DNA from: Acholeplasmatales bacterium
GTDB taxonomy: Bacteria; Bacillota_I; Bacilli_A; Izemoplasmatales; Izemoplasmataceae
NCBI GenBank assembly: GCA_007694145.1
Contig: RECF01000047.1
Coordinates: forward strand, 1 to 38,825
Length of the DNA stretch: 38,825 bases
Reading direction: 5' to 3'
Shown: piece by piece, positions 27,751 to 35,330 of the stretch
Position numbering within the stretch: the stretch's first letter is position 1
Layout: every line of letters starts with the position of its first letter
Translations under genes and position numbers: made by a program
The notes under the pieces: generated by a model
The model's input: the letters and a program-made list of their open reading frames with translations, nothing else
Databases searched by the model: none
What the model was told of the DNA's origin: nothing

Positions 27751-29829
27751 TTAATTGTGTGGTGTGTATCGCAAGCCGATGCGGAGTTGTTCAAGGTTGT
27801 GCTGCATCATCTCAAAGAGCGTCATCCCACGCTGATAATCAACGCTTGGGACGTTTTCCAACGCATAGAGATAAAGAATCTCGGCACCAGTTTCCTGGGC
27901 AATCGCTTGGGCGACATGCGGTGCAATCATTTTTTCAGAGAATAGATGTTCGATACCAAAAGCAGTCATCGTGTCAATCATGTTAGCTAAAGCTTGTGGC
28001 GTTGGTTCGGCATCGGTAGAAAATCCACGATAAGGATTCACGTACCCAAAGCTATAACGATGAACGAGGTATCCGAGAACATTATGACCCCCATACATGA
28101 TGACATTGAGTTCGGCATGCGCACGCAAGTCAAGGAAATCCTCATGTAAGGCATCGAGATCATTGAGATAGTTGTGGGCGTTGATTCGCAATGTACTTTC
28201 ATGTTGAGGAAGCAGTTCGATAAGGGCATCACGCACTTCAAGCATCATGATAGCAAGATTGAGCGGATCCATCCAGATATGCGGATCAAACGGACCGTCA
28301 AATTGCGGCTCATCGCTGACTGTGACATTCATCGGGGGTGTCGTGTAACGTAACTCACCACGGTGAACCCACGAGAAGACAACTTGAGTTTGACCATTTT
28401 GCAGACCGCGGATGTGAACATGGTCACCATGATTGACAAGTTCGACAATGCCTTCTGACGCACCGTGTGCGAGGGATACAGTTAGGGCGTTCACTTCACC
28501 TTCGCTGTCTAAATCGCGTTCCCGACCATCTGCGGACATGATGAAGGCACCGAGTGAAAGGTGTTCATTGACCGCGACACCTGGCAAGCCGCCATGCCAA
28601 TGGGTACCATGGACATAAGCGATTTTCGCGCCGTCATCTTGACGGTTGAGCAGTTCAAATGCACCGATTTCCGGTTGATGGACATGACTGCCGACCGTAA
28701 CGGTCATCGGCGGTGTCGTGTAGCGTAACTCACCACGGTGAACCCAAGAGAAGACAACTTGAGTTTGGCCGTTTTGCAAACCGCGAATATGAACATGATC
28801 ACCATGGTTGACAAGCTCGACTATACCTTCTTCCGCACCGTGTGCGAGCGAAACGGTCACTGCGTTAACTTCACCTTCGCTGTCGAGTTCACGTTCGCGA
28901 CCATCGGCTGAGACAATATGTGCGCCAAGCGACAGATGGCTGTCTACATCAACGATGGGTAGTGAACCGTGCCAATGAAGACCATGGACATAGGCGATTT
29001 TCGACCCGCCATCTTGACGGTTGAGCAGTTCAAAGGCACCGATTTCTGGTTGATGATCATGATCACCAACCGTGACTGTCATCGCCGGGGTGGTGTAGCG
29101 AACCTCACCGCGGTGAACCCAAGAGAACACCACGTGCGTGTGACCATCCTGCAAACCACGGATGTGCACATGGTCACCGTGGTTGACAAGTTCGACAATG
29201 CCTTCTGCTGCACCGTCTGCAAGGGAAACCGTGACGGCGTTGACGTCACCATCAAGCTCGCGTTCTCGATCGTCTGCTGAGACAATGTGCGCCCCAAGTG
29301 ACACGTGGCTGTCCACATCGATGTTTGGTAATGAGCCATGCCAATGGCCACCATGGACGTAGGCGATTTTCGCCCCACCGTCTTGACGGTCGAGCAGCTC
29401 AAATGCACCAATCTCATCCTCATGTTCATGATCGTGGTCATGGTTGTGATCATCAGGCATTGTGGTGCTTGCTTGAAAACCGATGAGGTGGACATTACGA
29501 CTGAGGTCAAGGACACGTAGGCGTCGGTTTTGCGTCGGACTGATGAGATTGGCGACCCATGGCTCCATGGTATCGCCGGTATATAGCAACAAATCCGCAT
29601 CCAAGATTTCTACGAGTTTTCTTGGTGTTGGTTCAAAGGTGTGTGCATCGGCACCTGGTGGCAACAACAACTCTAGGTCAATCAGGTCACCCGCCAAGGC
29701 TCTGGCAATATCATACTGGGGGAAGAGTGTGGCCAACACAACAGGCTTTTCGCGTTCCTGCTCTACAGAACAAGCGGACAATCCAGCTAAGAGAAAGACA
29801 GTCATCAACAACAACATTATTTTTTTCAT
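27751..29829 (-). CDS. ZnuA/AdcA-type zinc-binding lipoprotein with three inserted His-rich domains
   Basis: The 692-residue protein is far longer than the usual 300-320. It begins with a lipoprotein signal peptide (LAGLSAC, Cys20). The substrate-binding fold is split. Residues 28-120 carry DAHTFEPTPR with the first zinc His, and residues about 508-692 carry DPHIWMDP, YGGHNVLGYL and the remaining ligands. Between them, where ZnuA proteins have a short His loop, lies DDHNHDHDHEHEDE and then three tandem domains of about 123 residues (139-504). AAGGAGG fixes the start. No znuB or znuC neighbours it, so it must serve permease components encoded elsewhere, or act as a surface zinc scavenger. A Zur-like inverted repeat covers its -35. 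It may bind Mn, but the His content favours zinc. Confidence 0.9.
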   Translation of the reverse strand: MKKIMLLLMTVFLLAGLSACSVEQEREKPVVLATLFPQYDIARALAGDLIDLELLLPPGADAHTFEPTPRKLVEILDADLLLYTGDTMEPWVANLISPTQNRRLRVLDLSRNVHLIGFQASTTMPDDHNHDHDHEHEDEIGAFELLDRQDGGAKIAYVHGGHWHGSLPNIDVDSHVSLGAHIVSADDRERELDGDVNAVTVSLADGAAEGIVELVNHGDHVHIRGLQDGHTHVVFSWVHRGEVRYTTPAMTVTVGDHDHQPEIGAFELLNRQDGGSKIAYVHGLHWHGSLPIVDVDSHLSLGAHIVSADGRERELDSEGEVNAVTVSLAHGAEEGIVELVNHGDHVHIRGLQNGQTQVVFSWVHRGELRYTTPPMTVTVGSHVHQPEIGAFELLNRQDDGAKIAYVHGTHWHGGLPGVAVNEHLSLGAFIMSADGRERDLDSEGEVNALTVSLAHGASEGIVELVNHGDHVHIRGLQNGQTQVVFSWVHRGELRYTTPPMNVTVSDEPQFDGPFDPHIWMDPLNLAIMMLEVRDALIELLPQHESTLRINAHNYLNDLDALHEDFLDLRAHAELNVIMYGGHNVLGYLVHRYSFGYVNPYRGFSTDAEPTPQALANMIDTMTAFGIEHLFSEKMIAPHVAQAIAQETGAEILYLYALENVPSVDYQRGMTLFEMMQHNLEQLRIGLRYTPHN
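28318..29415 (-). repeat. Three tandem His-rich domain repeats inside the zinc lipoprotein gene
   Basis: Repeat 1 is 29047-29415, repeat 2 is 28672-29046 and repeat 3 is 28318-28671. Each begins EIGAFELL, contains VHGxHWHG, HxSLGA, NHGDHVHIRGLQ and SWVHRGE, and ends in a TTPxMTVTV strand. Eight His are kept in all three. Repeats 2 and 3 are closest at the DNA level, while repeat 1 lacks two codons, suggesting stepwise duplication. The beta-rich ending resembles an immunoglobulin-like fold, which is an inference. Confidence 0.9.
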
Positions 29830-29910: not shown

Positions 29911-29939
29911 AAAGAAAACGCGCATCGTTGTGCGCGTTT
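29911..29939 (-). terminator. Intrinsic terminator after udk
   Basis: On the minus strand AAACGCGCA pairs with TGCGCGTTT, followed by a T-rich run. Confidence 0.75.
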
Positions 29940-29946
29940 CACGGTC

Positions 29947-30671: not shown

Positions 30672-32231
30672 CTACATCCAATCGGGTGGATCAAAAGTTT
30701 GTGCCGCATTGTTGGTGGCACCGGGCGTCAGGTGCACACCTTCAAAGTAAGCCCAGGTACTACTACCATCAGGCCACCGGCCGTAAGACATGTTGCGTGG
30801 TATGAACACAGGCAATGTCTGATCGATACGCGTCACACGATCGGCATGGGTCAGTACAATAGACTGACCGCTTTGACTGATGCTGAAGTTTGTGTGTAGC
30901 CACGCATCGGGGTTACGCCGATCTTTTCCAGAAGCGTAGACAACCAAATGGCTATGCGCTGCCAGCGTGATGCCATTTGGAAACTGCCATTTCAAGGGGT
31001 CATCGGGATCATCAGATAGGAAGAAACCCGATAAATCCATGGCTTGATCATGCGGATTGAACAGTTCAATCCAATCTTCAAAATCGCCATCTTCATCTGG
31101 GAAAACTTGGCCGTTAGAACTCATGATTTCGTTGATGAAAAGCGTTTGGGTTAGTGGCTGGGGAAGATGGTGTGGTCGCCGGTAAGTAATGGCAGACCAG
31201 TACGCATCTAACAGTGCGTAGCCACTTTGATCGTCTTGTGTGGTCAAAGGGATCGGATTGTCGCGAATATCAATTTCAGCCAACTTGTTCGAAGCCGGGT
31301 CGTCTTGCAGTGCACCCGCTGCCATCAGCTGAGCGAGGACGTCGACGGATGTGATCCCCGTATTGCGCAAGTTCAGTCTTTGCAAGCGTGTCAGCGGTTC
31401 AAGTTGGTCGATTTGTTCACCAACAGGCACATGTTGCATAATCAGTGTTTCGAGATTTACTAGGTTGCGTAACGGTGACACATCATTGATTTCCGTGTTT
31501 GAATGTAGGTTCAGGTAGGTCAACGCTTGCAAATCATCTAAGAAGGCAAGGGTGCGCAAAGCAGTTTCACGTAAGTTGAGATATTCTAGTCGACTAAGCA
31601 TGCGCAACGTTTCAGCAGCGATGAGATGATCAAGAGGGTTTTTACTGAGATCAAGACGCCGCAAGTTCGTCAAACCTTGAAGTGGGCTGATATCAACGAT
31701 GTGGTTGTCACGCAGTTCTAGCGTCTCAAGAGACGTCAGGCTTTCAAGCAAGGTCAAATCCTCAAGACGAAACTGAAAGCTTAGATTGTCCGGGTTCGGG
31801 CGTAACACATTGTGTCGCAGGTTCAGATGGCGCAAAGGTACATCATGCAAGGCCGCAAAACCAATCGCTTCGAGACTGGTGATTTCGTTGTTGCGCAAAC
31901 TCAGTTCTTCAAGATGTCTCAATGTTGCAAGCGGGGATACATCGGTGATGAAGTTGTCTTCGAAGTCAAGGACGCGGACATAGCGCAACGCTTCAATCCC
32001 TTCTAAGTGTGTGATGCCCCGATTTCTTGCGTCAAGACGCGTCAACTGCTCGACCTCAAAGCGCCTGAGCGGGTCCTCTTGATTATTAAGGGCATCGCGC
32101 ACAGCTGCCTCAAGACCTTGATCGGTAAAGGTCACAACACTGTGTCGTCGATGCAACATCAAATAAAACGCCCCAAGGAGCAGGCCGCTTAATATAAGGA
32201 TAATCAGTAGTCGCGTCACACGAATTTTCAT
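30672..32231 (-). CDS. Membrane-anchored leucine-rich-repeat protein with lamin-tail domain
   Basis: The 519-residue protein has an N-terminal hydrophobic anchor (about 7-27) without a lipobox. A run of LRRs of about 22 residues each follows (about 60-335, repeats of the LxxLxxLxLxxNxI type such as LETLELRDNHIVDISPLQGL). Then comes a lamin-tail domain (about 362-470, FINEIMSSNG, DFEDWIELFNPHDQAMDLSG, FLSDDPDDPLKWQFPNG). The product should be displayed outside the membrane. Lamin-tail domains often accompany CotH kinases in bacteria, sometimes in one polypeptide. Here it is the last gene of the cotH - DUF4956 - VTC operon, 26 bases after VTC. Its function is unknown; I infer a structural or recognition partner of the CotH lipoprotein. 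GAGGTGA fixes the start. Confidence 0.85.
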   Translation of the reverse strand: MKIRVTRLLIILILSGLLLGAFYLMLHRRHSVVTFTDQGLEAAVRDALNNQEDPLRRFEVEQLTRLDARNRGITHLEGIEALRYVRVLDFEDNFITDVSPLATLRHLEELSLRNNEITSLEAIGFAALHDVPLRHLNLRHNVLRPNPDNLSFQFRLEDLTLLESLTSLETLELRDNHIVDISPLQGLTNLRRLDLSKNPLDHLIAAETLRMLSRLEYLNLRETALRTLAFLDDLQALTYLNLHSNTEINDVSPLRNLVNLETLIMQHVPVGEQIDQLEPLTRLQRLNLRNTGITSVDVLAQLMAAGALQDDPASNKLAEIDIRDNPIPLTTQDDQSGYALLDAYWSAITYRRPHHLPQPLTQTLFINEIMSSNGQVFPDEDGDFEDWIELFNPHDQAMDLSGFFLSDDPDDPLKWQFPNGITLAAHSHLVVYASGKDRRNPDAWLHTNFSISQSGQSIVLTHADRVTRIDQTLPVFIPRNMSYGRWPDGSSTWAYFEGVHLTPGATNNAAQTFDPPDWM

Positions 32232-32257
32232 GGGGTCACCTCACAATGCCAAGAAGT

Positions 32258-32998
32258 TCAACTGTCATGGACGGCGGGAAAATGCAACATGTGGGGCCGA
32301 ATGACTTCAATGCCTTGGACGTACTTGCTGTTGGGTACGGCTTTCAGACTGTGGGTGCGAACGATTCGCTTGAGCCAGTCAGGCGTCGACATGCCGCACT
32401 TAATTTCGAGAATTATTCTTTTCGGTCGGTGATAGCGCATTGCGGGCGCTATAGGAAACAGCACGTTCGCCCGGCTGCTTTGCACCCCGTGATCAAACGT
32501 AATCCTGAGCGGTTCACGCGTGCGGGACATGTAACCTTCGCGTGTATACTCAACCAAGAGTTGCGGTTGCAAGCTACGAACATGAAGTAAACGAAGAAAC
32601 TCCTGCCAAACCGGATCAGGGGCTTCAGGCATGACATCACGGTCAAACCAAGCTGAAAACACATCATAATCGATCAAGCTAGCATGTTTAATCATGGCCG
32701 CGCCTCGCTTGGTCTTGAGTTCGATGGAGACCTGTTCGCATTGCGCTACTGTATCCACGTAACTGCGCACACGGATTTTGATACGACCAAATTGCCCGTC
32801 ATCCCGTTCATGAAAGGCGTGAAGCGCATGCGTGTCGTAGTAAAGACTTCGCACTAGATAACGACTGTTCGGTGCTTCCTCAGTATAAAAGTCACGTGTC
32901 ACAAACGGCGCCAACGCGTGTTTGACAGCGTAGTATTGAGAAAGTGACAAGACATACTTGTATTCAAAACGTTCCGAAGTCCGAATCATGGGCCTCAC
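32258..32998 (-). CDS. VTC-domain (polyphosphate polymerase-like) protein
   Basis: This 246-residue protein is a triphosphate-tunnel-type VTC domain, related to the catalytic subunit of yeast polyphosphate polymerase. Tunnel residues are visible in order: RFEYKYVLS near the N-terminus, LVRSLYYDT, KIRVRSYVD, ELKTKRG, LLVEYTREGY, LRITFDHG, ILEIKC with the metal-binding Glu, and SKYVQGIE. There is no membrane helix; the DUF4956 partner may anchor it at the cytoplasmic face. The gene starts with GTG at 32998, overlapping the DUF4956 stop (GTGA); an in-frame ATG at 32989 is an alternative with a close GAGG. Overlap implies translational coupling. Polyphosphate synthesis is known for the family; it is inferred here. 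Confidence 0.9.
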   Translation of the reverse strand: MRPMIRTSERFEYKYVLSLSQYYAVKHALAPFVTRDFYTEEAPNSRYLVRSLYYDTHALHAFHERDDGQFGRIKIRVRSYVDTVAQCEQVSIELKTKRGAAMIKHASLIDYDVFSAWFDRDVMPEAPDPVWQEFLRLLHVRSLQPQLLVEYTREGYMSRTREPLRITFDHGVQSSRANVLFPIAPAMRYHRPKRIILEIKCGMSTPDWLKRIVRTHSLKAVPNSKYVQGIEVIRPHMLHFPAVHDS

Positions 32999-33675
32999 AT
33001 CGGCAACGCCAGCTGTGGCGCTAGTAGCGAGACTTTGTGAACCCCTTCTGCGGCTTGAAGTAGGTGGACGGTGTCATCGATACTACTTAGTTTCGTTTTG
33101 TCAAATCGAAGCTCGAAGATAATCTCATACCGATCGCCCTCTTGCTCACGACTACGCAACTGCACATCGATGCCACCCATGTCGGCCAACGTCTTCATCG
33201 GTGTATCGTCAAAGCGTCGCTCGCCGCTGATGATCAAAATATACTCCGCATGGATCGGACGCCCATACTTGATCAAGTAGAAGACCAACATCAGTGCGCC
33301 GAGGATGAGCGTGGCCAAAACAGCGATGGTCCAGTTTTGTGTACCGATGCCAAGCCCGATGGCGATGGTCCAAAACAGAAAAGCCATGTCACGGGTATCT
33401 TTGATGGGTGTACGAAACCGGATGATTGACAAAGAGCCCACCAAACCAAGTGATAAGACGAGATCCCCCTGGATGAAAAACATCACCAAGGTCACAATGG
33501 GGGATAAAACCACGAGGGTTGGTAGAAATGAACTTTCATAATTGAGACCGCGGTGGGTATGGCGATAGATCAGGGCAATGGCTGTACCGAGTACAATCGC
33601 AAGAAACATGGAAAAGACAAAAGTAAGCAAGGTTTCAGAAGGGATGATAATCTGATCGATTAGGGTTGTCATCAT
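32995..33675 (-). CDS. DUF4956 membrane protein
   Basis: The 226-residue protein has four hydrophobic helices (about 15-40, 50-70, 75-95 and 105-140). The family signature GLVGSLSIIRFRTPIKD leads into AFLFWTIAIGLGIG. A soluble C-terminal domain follows (about 150-226, alpha/beta). DUF4956 proteins have no known biochemistry but are commonly encoded beside VTC and CotH genes. It is preceded by cotH at 32 bases and overlaps the VTC gene by four bases, so it is likely to work in a complex with VTC. GAGGTGC places the start at the ATG at 33675, with a second ATG directly after. Confidence 0.9.
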   Translation of the reverse strand: MMTTLIDQIIIPSETLLTFVFSMFLAIVLGTAIALIYRHTHRGLNYESSFLPTLVVLSPIVTLVMFFIQGDLVLSLGLVGSLSIIRFRTPIKDTRDMAFLFWTIAIGLGIGTQNWTIAVLATLILGALMLVFYLIKYGRPIHAEYILIISGERRFDDTPMKTLADMGGIDVQLRSREQEGDRYEIIFELRFDKTKLSSIDDTVHLLQAAEGVHKVSLLAPQLALPM

Positions 33676-33707
33676 GATGCACCTCATATTCTATGAATTG
33701 GCGGGTT

Positions 33708-35246
33708 TCAGTCAAAGAAACCATATTGGTAGTCGTTGGAGTGAACGGTGAAATACATCCAGGTCGAGCGCGTTTGAAGATAATCGATTAAAAAATCGCC
33801 ATGTTCTTGGTGGGTATGCAAAGCGACAAGTTCAGGTGTGTTCGGCCACACGTAGTGGGTCAAAATCGGCCACCGATTGAAGTTGTTCGCTGCCATGTCC
33901 GCAAGACTTTCGGTCATGACTGGAATCGCCTCGAGCAAGACCGGCAAGAACACGTTATGGACGGTCGCATACCGTTCCCTGAATCGGTTCCTGACCTCAG
34001 GAATTTGCATCATCAGTGTAAACCAACGATTTTTGTCCCGCATGCCATGAAACCCTTCAGGACCATAGCCAAAAGACATGTAGTACGCATTACCAATCGC
34101 TAGATCGAAGTCCCATATCGGTCCCATTCGCAACGGTTCACCAGGCTGCTTATACATAAAGACGCTGCTCCAGCCCACATCGACATTCTTGAACAACTCA
34201 TGGATGATGAAGTAGTCGATGAAATTATCGATGTCCATGTAGGCCTCGTAACCGGTGCGCGCGATCATCGCGGCTTCCATTTCCACGATATGGTTGCGCA
34301 TGAACGCGTTGTACGCTTGCATGGTCGCAGTGTTGTTTGAGGAAGGAACCTTGATGTTGTAAGGGATACCAGCAACCGTAAACCAATCGGTTCCCGTCAC
34401 GTGGCCATGCTCATAAAAACGTTGATCCAGTTCCATGAAGTAGCCAACATCTAGGCCCATGTCACCAACAGGCGACTTGAGGGCGAGTTTGTTCGGATGG
34501 GCTTCGATATGCTCGGTAAGCACATAGACGCCCTCATAATGACCGTTAACGTAGAGTTCGACATAGCGCGTTGACACAGCATGGTCAAGATGATCAAAGA
34601 AATGGGTGAACCAATGAACAACCGTGTTGCGCATCAGTGATTTGTCCGCATACTCAGCAAGTAGTACGTAGTTGCGCGCTTCAGGTAATCCCAGTAATGA
34701 TGCCGCGTCACCTAGACGGATACGGAAAGGTTTCTTCGGCATGAACCAAGTCGAGTTGCCCCGACCCCTGAGCTCGGCATTGTGGGTTTCAAAAAGCTCA
34801 GTATGTACCCCGTTGACTCGACCACTTAAACTGAGTGCAGCCCCGACATACGTGTCGCGATTGATCTGGCTGATCGATTCAGCCATCTCAATTTCAAGCA
34901 CATAGCGATGCCGACCAGATTCAGGGGCAAGCAGCCGTAACGGATAGGTGACATCCATTGTACCGCTTCCTGACAGTCTAATGGTGGCTTCTAACTCAAT
35001 CTGCGTATCAAAAAGCGGTGGTTCATAGAGAAAAAACCTGTCTAAAACTTGGTCATTCAAGCGCCATTCAATGACCGCATCCGGATGAACAGGCAATACA
35101 AAGTCGGCATTGACGTCGCTTGGAAGCTGAAACTTGATTGCAGCACTGACTTGATCGAGTGCTTCTTGATCGACGGGCGTATTCAAGCAACCCATGAGTC
35201 CAAGACTAAACGCAAGGAGCGTCACCATGCACCATACTCTTTTCAT
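33708..35246 (-). CDS. CotH-like kinase lipoprotein
   Basis: The 512-residue lipoprotein has a signal peptide ending in LGLMGC (Cys20), followed by a beta-rich N-terminal region (about 25-150) and a CotH kinase domain (about 155-450). Landmarks are ELRGRGNSTWFMPKKPFRIR, NYVLLAEYADKSLMRN, YVELYVNGHYEGVYVLTEHI, NFIDYFIIHELFKN and the metal-binding MGPIWDFDLAIGN. CotH of Bacillus spore coats is an atypical protein kinase that phosphorylates coat proteins. Here the enzyme should sit outside the membrane, where ATP supply is unclear. The start at 35246 follows GGGGGATTCG; the frame upstream is not required. First gene of its operon, with an apparently dedicated promoter. Confidence 0.9.
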   Translation of the reverse strand: MKRVWCMVTLLAFSLGLMGCLNTPVDQEALDQVSAAIKFQLPSDVNADFVLPVHPDAVIEWRLNDQVLDRFFLYEPPLFDTQIELEATIRLSGSGTMDVTYPLRLLAPESGRHRYVLEIEMAESISQINRDTYVGAALSLSGRVNGVHTELFETHNAELRGRGNSTWFMPKKPFRIRLGDAASLLGLPEARNYVLLAEYADKSLMRNTVVHWFTHFFDHLDHAVSTRYVELYVNGHYEGVYVLTEHIEAHPNKLALKSPVGDMGLDVGYFMELDQRFYEHGHVTGTDWFTVAGIPYNIKVPSSNNTATMQAYNAFMRNHIVEMEAAMIARTGYEAYMDIDNFIDYFIIHELFKNVDVGWSSVFMYKQPGEPLRMGPIWDFDLAIGNAYYMSFGYGPEGFHGMRDKNRWFTLMMQIPEVRNRFRERYATVHNVFLPVLLEAIPVMTESLADMAANNFNRWPILTHYVWPNTPELVALHTHQEHGDFLIDYLQTRSTWMYFTVHSNDYQYGFFD

Positions 35247-35301: not shown

Positions 35302-35330
35302 ATTGTACCATGAATACGCAGGATGTGCAA
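35302..35330 (-). promoter_or_regulatory. Promoter TTGCAC-17-TACAAT for the cotH/DUF4956/VTC/LRR operon
   Basis: Minus-strand -35 is at 35325-35330 and -10 at 35302-35307, about 55 bases upstream of the cotH start. The same hexamers and spacing precede the cysteine desulfidase gene. Confidence 0.55.

Follow-up and report, generated by a model that had tools for sequence, protein, structure and literature searches.

A near-obligate DUF4956-VTC gene pair with exchangeable surface partners: a candidate membrane polyphosphate synthase

We analysed a 38,825-nucleotide stretch of contig RECF01000047.1 from an Acholeplasmatales bacterium (the window), in which genes for a CotH-family protein, a DUF4956 membrane protein, a VTC-type tunnel domain protein and a membrane-anchored protein with leucine-rich repeats (LRR) and a lamin-tail domain (LTD) form a single minus-strand operon (30672-35246, from the list of open reading frames and Pfam). 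Across genomes, DUF4956 and VTC almost always occur as a pair and behave as a unit, while the surface partner of this pair is exchangeable. The best-supported reading, to which we give about an even chance, is that VTC and DUF4956 form a membrane polyphosphate synthase tied to an assembly of proteins at the cell surface. In bacteria, PPK1 and PPK2 are usually regarded as the enzymes that make polyphosphate; if the reading is true, the pair would represent a second bacterial route, with a reason for its membrane location, and would bear on how extracellular kinases are supplied with phosphate, which is an open question for CotH. Since the core recurs in many bacteria with different surface partners, sequence comparison points to a possible route, so far little studied, by which bacteria would make phosphate chains for their surface.

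The DUF4956-VTC pair and its surface partners

Loci were collected by a peptide-pattern scan of GTDB species genomes, from which the best 80 of 579 were kept. A first alignment had no stretch conserved enough for scanning and a closer subset was used instead, so the sample is biased, and the invariance of pattern residues within the 80 loci is partly built in. Family models for this set were built from the window proteins and the Cthe_2159 protein of one locus (L028) and were anchored to Pfam. The loci span Bacillota, Chloroflexota, Spirochaetota, Caldisericota, Elusimicrobia and Actinomycetota, and VTC adjoins DUF4956 in 78 of the 80, with a median gap of about 22 bases and with both exceptions at contig ends. 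Among 245 genomes of the phylum, DUF4956 was found in 43 and VTC in 45, and all 43 DUF4956 genomes carry VTC (Fisher p 6e-46, relatedness ignored); in the window's genome and 60 relatives, each family occurs in 22 genomes, 21 of which are shared. Distances of DUF4956 and VTC show a partial correlation of 0.73, compared to 0.08 for VTC and CotH once DUF4956 is allowed for. The sole clear exception among the relatives is a DUF4956 gene divergent from a CotH gene in a genome that lacks VTC (G026:C12, L033 8941-9606).

CotH lies within three genes of the pair in 62 of the 80 loci and Cthe_2159 (PF14262), a beta-helix protein that is the alternative surface-exposed partner, in 10, with both present in none. 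On a tree of VTC plus DUF4956, the CotH/Cthe_2159 state requires five switches. Within this bacterial order the surface part varies: the same-family genome G021 has separate CotH and LRR-LTD genes, as in the window, while two other relatives (G007 and G040) encode LRR-LTD-CotH as a single polypeptide, five (G008, G011, G020, G022 and G029) have a plain CotH partner and three (G037, G046 and G054) have Cthe_2159; in G058 and others, the pair sits among GH16, DUF5696 and ABC-transporter genes. A single VTC-LRR-LTD-CotH frame in G048 was considered as an inside-outside fusion and was rejected, as the frame crosses a stretch of N.

The window versions of VTC and DUF4956 most resemble those of G021 and of the fused LRR-LTD-CotH loci (nearest 56-66% identity), and the window LRR-LTD protein is homologous to the N-terminal part of these fused polypeptides. 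The CotH proteins of the window and G021 instead group with CotHs of clostridial loci (99% SH-aLRT), apart from the fused CotHs; two of these clostridial loci (L058 and L093) contain glycosyltransferase genes. The simplest reading, on moderate evidence and with long branches in the trees, is a replacement of the CotH part beside a VTC-DUF4956 core that stayed in place. The window's genome also has a second CotH locus (G000:C26, L046 11080-13731, minus strand), encoding an 883-aa LRR-LTD-CotH protein with no VTC or DUF4956 beside it, and its CotH falls on a different branch from the window CotH.

Two further sets of loci deserve mention. Window-type DUF4956 (48-57% identical) occurs with LRR or LRR-CotH proteins in metagenome-assembled genomes of Spirochaetales, Chloroflexi and Caldiserica (L048, L051, L054 and L055), which suggests transfer between phyla. 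Genes for an OmpR-type response regulator and a histidine kinase flank VTC-DUF4956-CotH at L066 (7022-8910) and L067 (7208-9158), and neighbours of similar size recur at many other clostridial loci, making these genes a possible clue to regulation.

A CotH/VTC/DUF4956 cassette beside Pel loci is already known: CotH, a polyphosphate polymerase and DUF4956 (with or without DUF4832) accompany Gram-positive Pel loci as accessory genes (PMC7112168). In Streptococcus intermedius, SIR_1592-1594 combine the same three families in one operon, including a secreted CotH and a DUF4956 protein that has four membrane segments plus an ACT domain inside the cell (PMC12345266). The window operon differs in having the extra LRR-LTD protein and no Pel locus; PelG was found in none of the 61 genomes (the window's and its 60 relatives), and the cassette is not contiguous with pelDEADAFG. 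The 2025 S. intermedius paper saw the arrangement at Pel loci only (PMC12345266); we considered and rejected a confinement of the triad to such loci, as it turns up frequently where PelG is absent from the genome. The NELoc-2 cluster of Clostridium perfringens brings together VTC, CotH, chitin-synthase-like and small membrane proteins (PMC2879425), and the CotHs of NELoc-2-like glycosyltransferase clusters are the closest to the window CotH, but the window operon has no adjacent glycosyltransferase. Our analysis adds to this picture the Pel-free form, the exchange of partners, the apparent replacement of CotH and the lack of other detected polyphosphate enzymes.

Predicted properties of the proteins

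The window VTC protein stands alone, with no SPX domain, no membrane segment and no other Pfam match. Searches with single VTC or CotH sequences (phmmer) found little, and profiles were needed; a bacterial VTC profile ranks yeast Vtc4 (2.3e-16) ahead of Vtc2 and Vtc3 (about 1e-6). All 11 mapped catalytic residues of Vtc4 recur unchanged in the window protein and show no variation across 41 sequences: R10, K14, R76, R78, K95 and K104 align with Vtc4 R196, K200, R264, R266, K281 and K294, and R153, R165, E198, K200 and K225 align with R361, R373, E426, K428 and K458. The predicted structure (pLDDT 93.4) matches Vtc4 at Z 20.5 with a root-mean-square deviation of 2.8 over 226 residues. The tunnel fold and catalytic residues are thus shared with the eukaryotic VTC complex (Vtc1/Vtc3/Vtc4), which in yeast moves the growing chain across a membrane (PMC4641920). 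Unlike that complex, the window polymerase candidate lacks both SPX and a membrane domain, and its putative membrane partner is MgtC-like and is not Vtc1-like by any match found.

PPK1, PPK2 and Ppx gave no match in the window's genome (completeness 92.6%), and clear PPK1 was found in only three VTC-bearing relatives (G022, G029 and G032). Because PPK1 and PPK2 were undetected, VTC would be the sole known polyphosphate polymerase of this genome, if it works as predicted.

DUF4956 is modelled (AlphaFold2, pLDDT 87.7) with four to five membrane helices ahead of a cytoplasmic ACT-like domain of beta-alpha-beta-beta-alpha-beta order. The best solved matches of this domain are MgtC C-terminal domains (Z 10.8 and 10.3), with other, unrelated ACT-like folds slightly below (Z 9-10); Foldseek and VIA matches cover the ACT-like part only, with none for the membrane part. 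MgtC/SapB proteins share the order of membrane helices and ACT-like C-terminal domain, but DUF4956 is set apart by an MgtC equivalog score of 21.1 bits, far under the cut-off of 214, by its fixed pairing with VTC and by an invariant RFR motif. This motif (R90-F91-R92) and K96 are invariant near the predicted inner mouth, and RFR is also invariant in an independent, profile-found set. In the model, R90, R92 and K96 would lie at the inner end of a helix, provided that the C-terminus is inside as in the S. intermedius protein (PMC12345266), and we infer a basic inner mouth suited to a polyanion.

A lipobox (LMGC) is found close to residue 20 of the window CotH, and among the CotHs linked to the pair the N-terminus is hydrophobic in 61 of 63; the LRR-LTD protein carries a single membrane segment, at its N-terminus. 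A profile of 21 CotHs matches Bacillus cereus CotH (5jd9) at 2.2e-39, and D356 and D379 fall at the motifs of B. subtilis D228 and D251 with the same 23-residue spacing, both invariant in the 21 sequences. The window CotH is a probable kinase of the CotH family (PF08757), sharing the domain and both catalytic aspartates with the Bacillus spore-coat kinase, but it is a lipoprotein linked to VTC-DUF4956 and lies outside any spore-coat gene set.

What the pair may do

An earlier note on this DNA had proposed a membrane-bound polyphosphate synthase of VTC and DUF4956, and the conserved pairing and intact tunnel residues make this a reasonable inference; the neighbourhood is conserved across genomes, and the loss of functional VTC residues that would have spoken against the proposal was not seen. 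In the reading we prefer, VTC would polymerise phosphate from ATP at the cytoplasmic face, and DUF4956, MgtC-like and with its basic patch on that face, would bind and anchor VTC and probably pass or regulate the polyphosphate chain; the product is probably exported. The pair would work with an exchangeable surface protein acting on or with the product, here the CotH-type kinase lipoprotein and the LRR/lamin-tail membrane protein, which may build or alter the cell envelope. Three features open the idea to direct testing: the pairing, the exchange of partners and a genome in which neither PPK nor Ppx was detected.

Several points weigh against this synthase. The genome is 92.6% complete, so the absent PPK and Ppx could be assembly gaps, and the 80 loci were drawn by peptide patterns and are not a random sample. 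DUF4956-VTC fusions were searched for and none was found, the DUF4956 open frames being about 225-300 aa long, with one of 145. E12 of the window VTC is an acid where tunnel hydrolases have a metal-binding glutamate and Vtc4 has T198. Deletion of the S. intermedius VTC gene had no reported effect (PMC12345266), and polymerase or export activity for a bacterial VTC of this type was not found in the open-licence papers searched.

A broader form of the synthase reading, which we advance only tentatively, is a widespread PPK-independent VTC-DUF4956 machine that makes and exports polyphosphate, which interchangeable surface proteins (CotH, Cthe_2159 or LRR/lamin-tail) would bind, attach or use as a phosphate donor.

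Somewhat less probable still is the view that the pair maintains a store of polyphosphate in the cytoplasm or serves phosphate homeostasis; the MgtC-like protein would then act as sensor or regulator, without any export, and CotH would simply be regulated together with the pair. The ACT/MgtC-like C-terminal domain of DUF4956 fits such a role, as a passage of PMC12345266 cites MgtC as regulating phosphate and ATP metabolism, and so do the OmpR-type two-component genes that flank some loci. However, no Ppx was found to draw on a store, nor a PPK in the genome, and the steady linkage to surface proteins of unrelated folds speaks against this view.

It is unlikely that the external CotH kinase draws its phosphate from polyphosphate made by VTC and passed via DUF4956, with the LRR/LTD protein serving as scaffold or substrate, as the earlier note had suggested. 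The lipobox places CotH outside the cell, its catalytic aspartates are kept, most loci have it near the pair, and how CotH obtains ATP in spores is still unsettled (PMC7821199). On the other hand, CotH labels substrates from ATP in vitro (PMC7821199), and the pair also occurs with Cthe_2159 and no CotH (ten loci) or with GH16/ABC-transporter genes. In S. intermedius, deleting DUF4956 raised Pel and deleting CotH lowered it, both cutting aggregation, while the VTC deletion was silent (PMC12345266). Because the core serves CotH-less loci and the published deletions do not resemble one linear pathway, supply of CotH by the product is weakly supported; the scaffold role of the LRR/lamin-tail protein gains some support from relatives in which LRR-LTD and CotH are one polypeptide.

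It is equally improbable that the VTC-domain protein is a tri- or polyphosphatase or another tunnel-superfamily triphosphate enzyme. Tunnel enzymes are functionally diverse (PMC4641920), and the acidic patch gives a mixed picture: the conserved E12 lies at the hydrolase metal-2 position, but two other positions of the patch, mapped by motif, are basic as in Vtc4 (R10 and K200). Against this reading, K225 matches the catalytic K458 of Vtc4, and a plant hydrolase with this fold can do without the equivalent lysine (PMC4641920); Pfam gives no CYTH match, and the model matches yeast VTC proteins (Z 17-20.5) better than tunnel hydrolases (at most 14.3).

Operon layout and neighbouring features

The four genes stand as the earlier note had described them, with open reading frames and Pfam in agreement (Table 1), and the scores of all four products exceed the curated cut-offs (23 for VTC; 30.6 for DUF4956, PF16316). 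Because G021 repeats the same four genes in identical order, the set is not due to chance. The DUF4956 and VTC genes overlap by 4 bases and 26 bases separate VTC from LRR-LTD, both as previously given; the 32 bases given for the CotH-DUF4956 junction are counted from the second start, and the gap is 20 bases from the first ATG. An alternative TTG start could extend the CotH gene to 35264.

Table 1. Features of the operon and its flanks, in window positions
Feature	Positions	Strand	Details
CotH-family kinase lipoprotein (probable kinase)	33708-35246	-	512 aa; Pfam CotH 144 bits, 9.5e-42
DUF4956 membrane protein	32995-33687	-	230 aa; Pfam 57 bits, 2.6e-15
VTC-type tunnel domain protein	32258-32998	-	246 aa; Pfam VTC 122.3 bits, 3.1e-35
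Membrane-anchored LRR + LTD protein	30672-32231	-	519 aa; LRR_4 98 bits, LTD 60 bits
Candidate operon promoter	35302-35329	-	TGCACA-16-TACAAT, TG before -10 (extended -10 type); consensus match only
Terminator-like hairpin	29915-29940	-	past uridine kinase gene; consensus match only

A single shared promoter had also been proposed. The candidate promoter lies about 55 bases upstream of the CotH ATG, and a second promoter-like site lies inside the operon ahead of DUF4956 (33715-33688), which leaves one promoter for the whole operon likely only. The hairpin is the first and only strong terminator-like one downstream of the operon, and the uridine kinase gene intervenes. Farther along the same strand (27751-29829, minus), a ZnuA-type zinc-binding lipoprotein carries three tandem, His-rich repeats of about 100 residues (NHGDHVHIRGLQ..., YVHG.HWHG), inserted at the position of the usual His-rich loop of ZnuA proteins.

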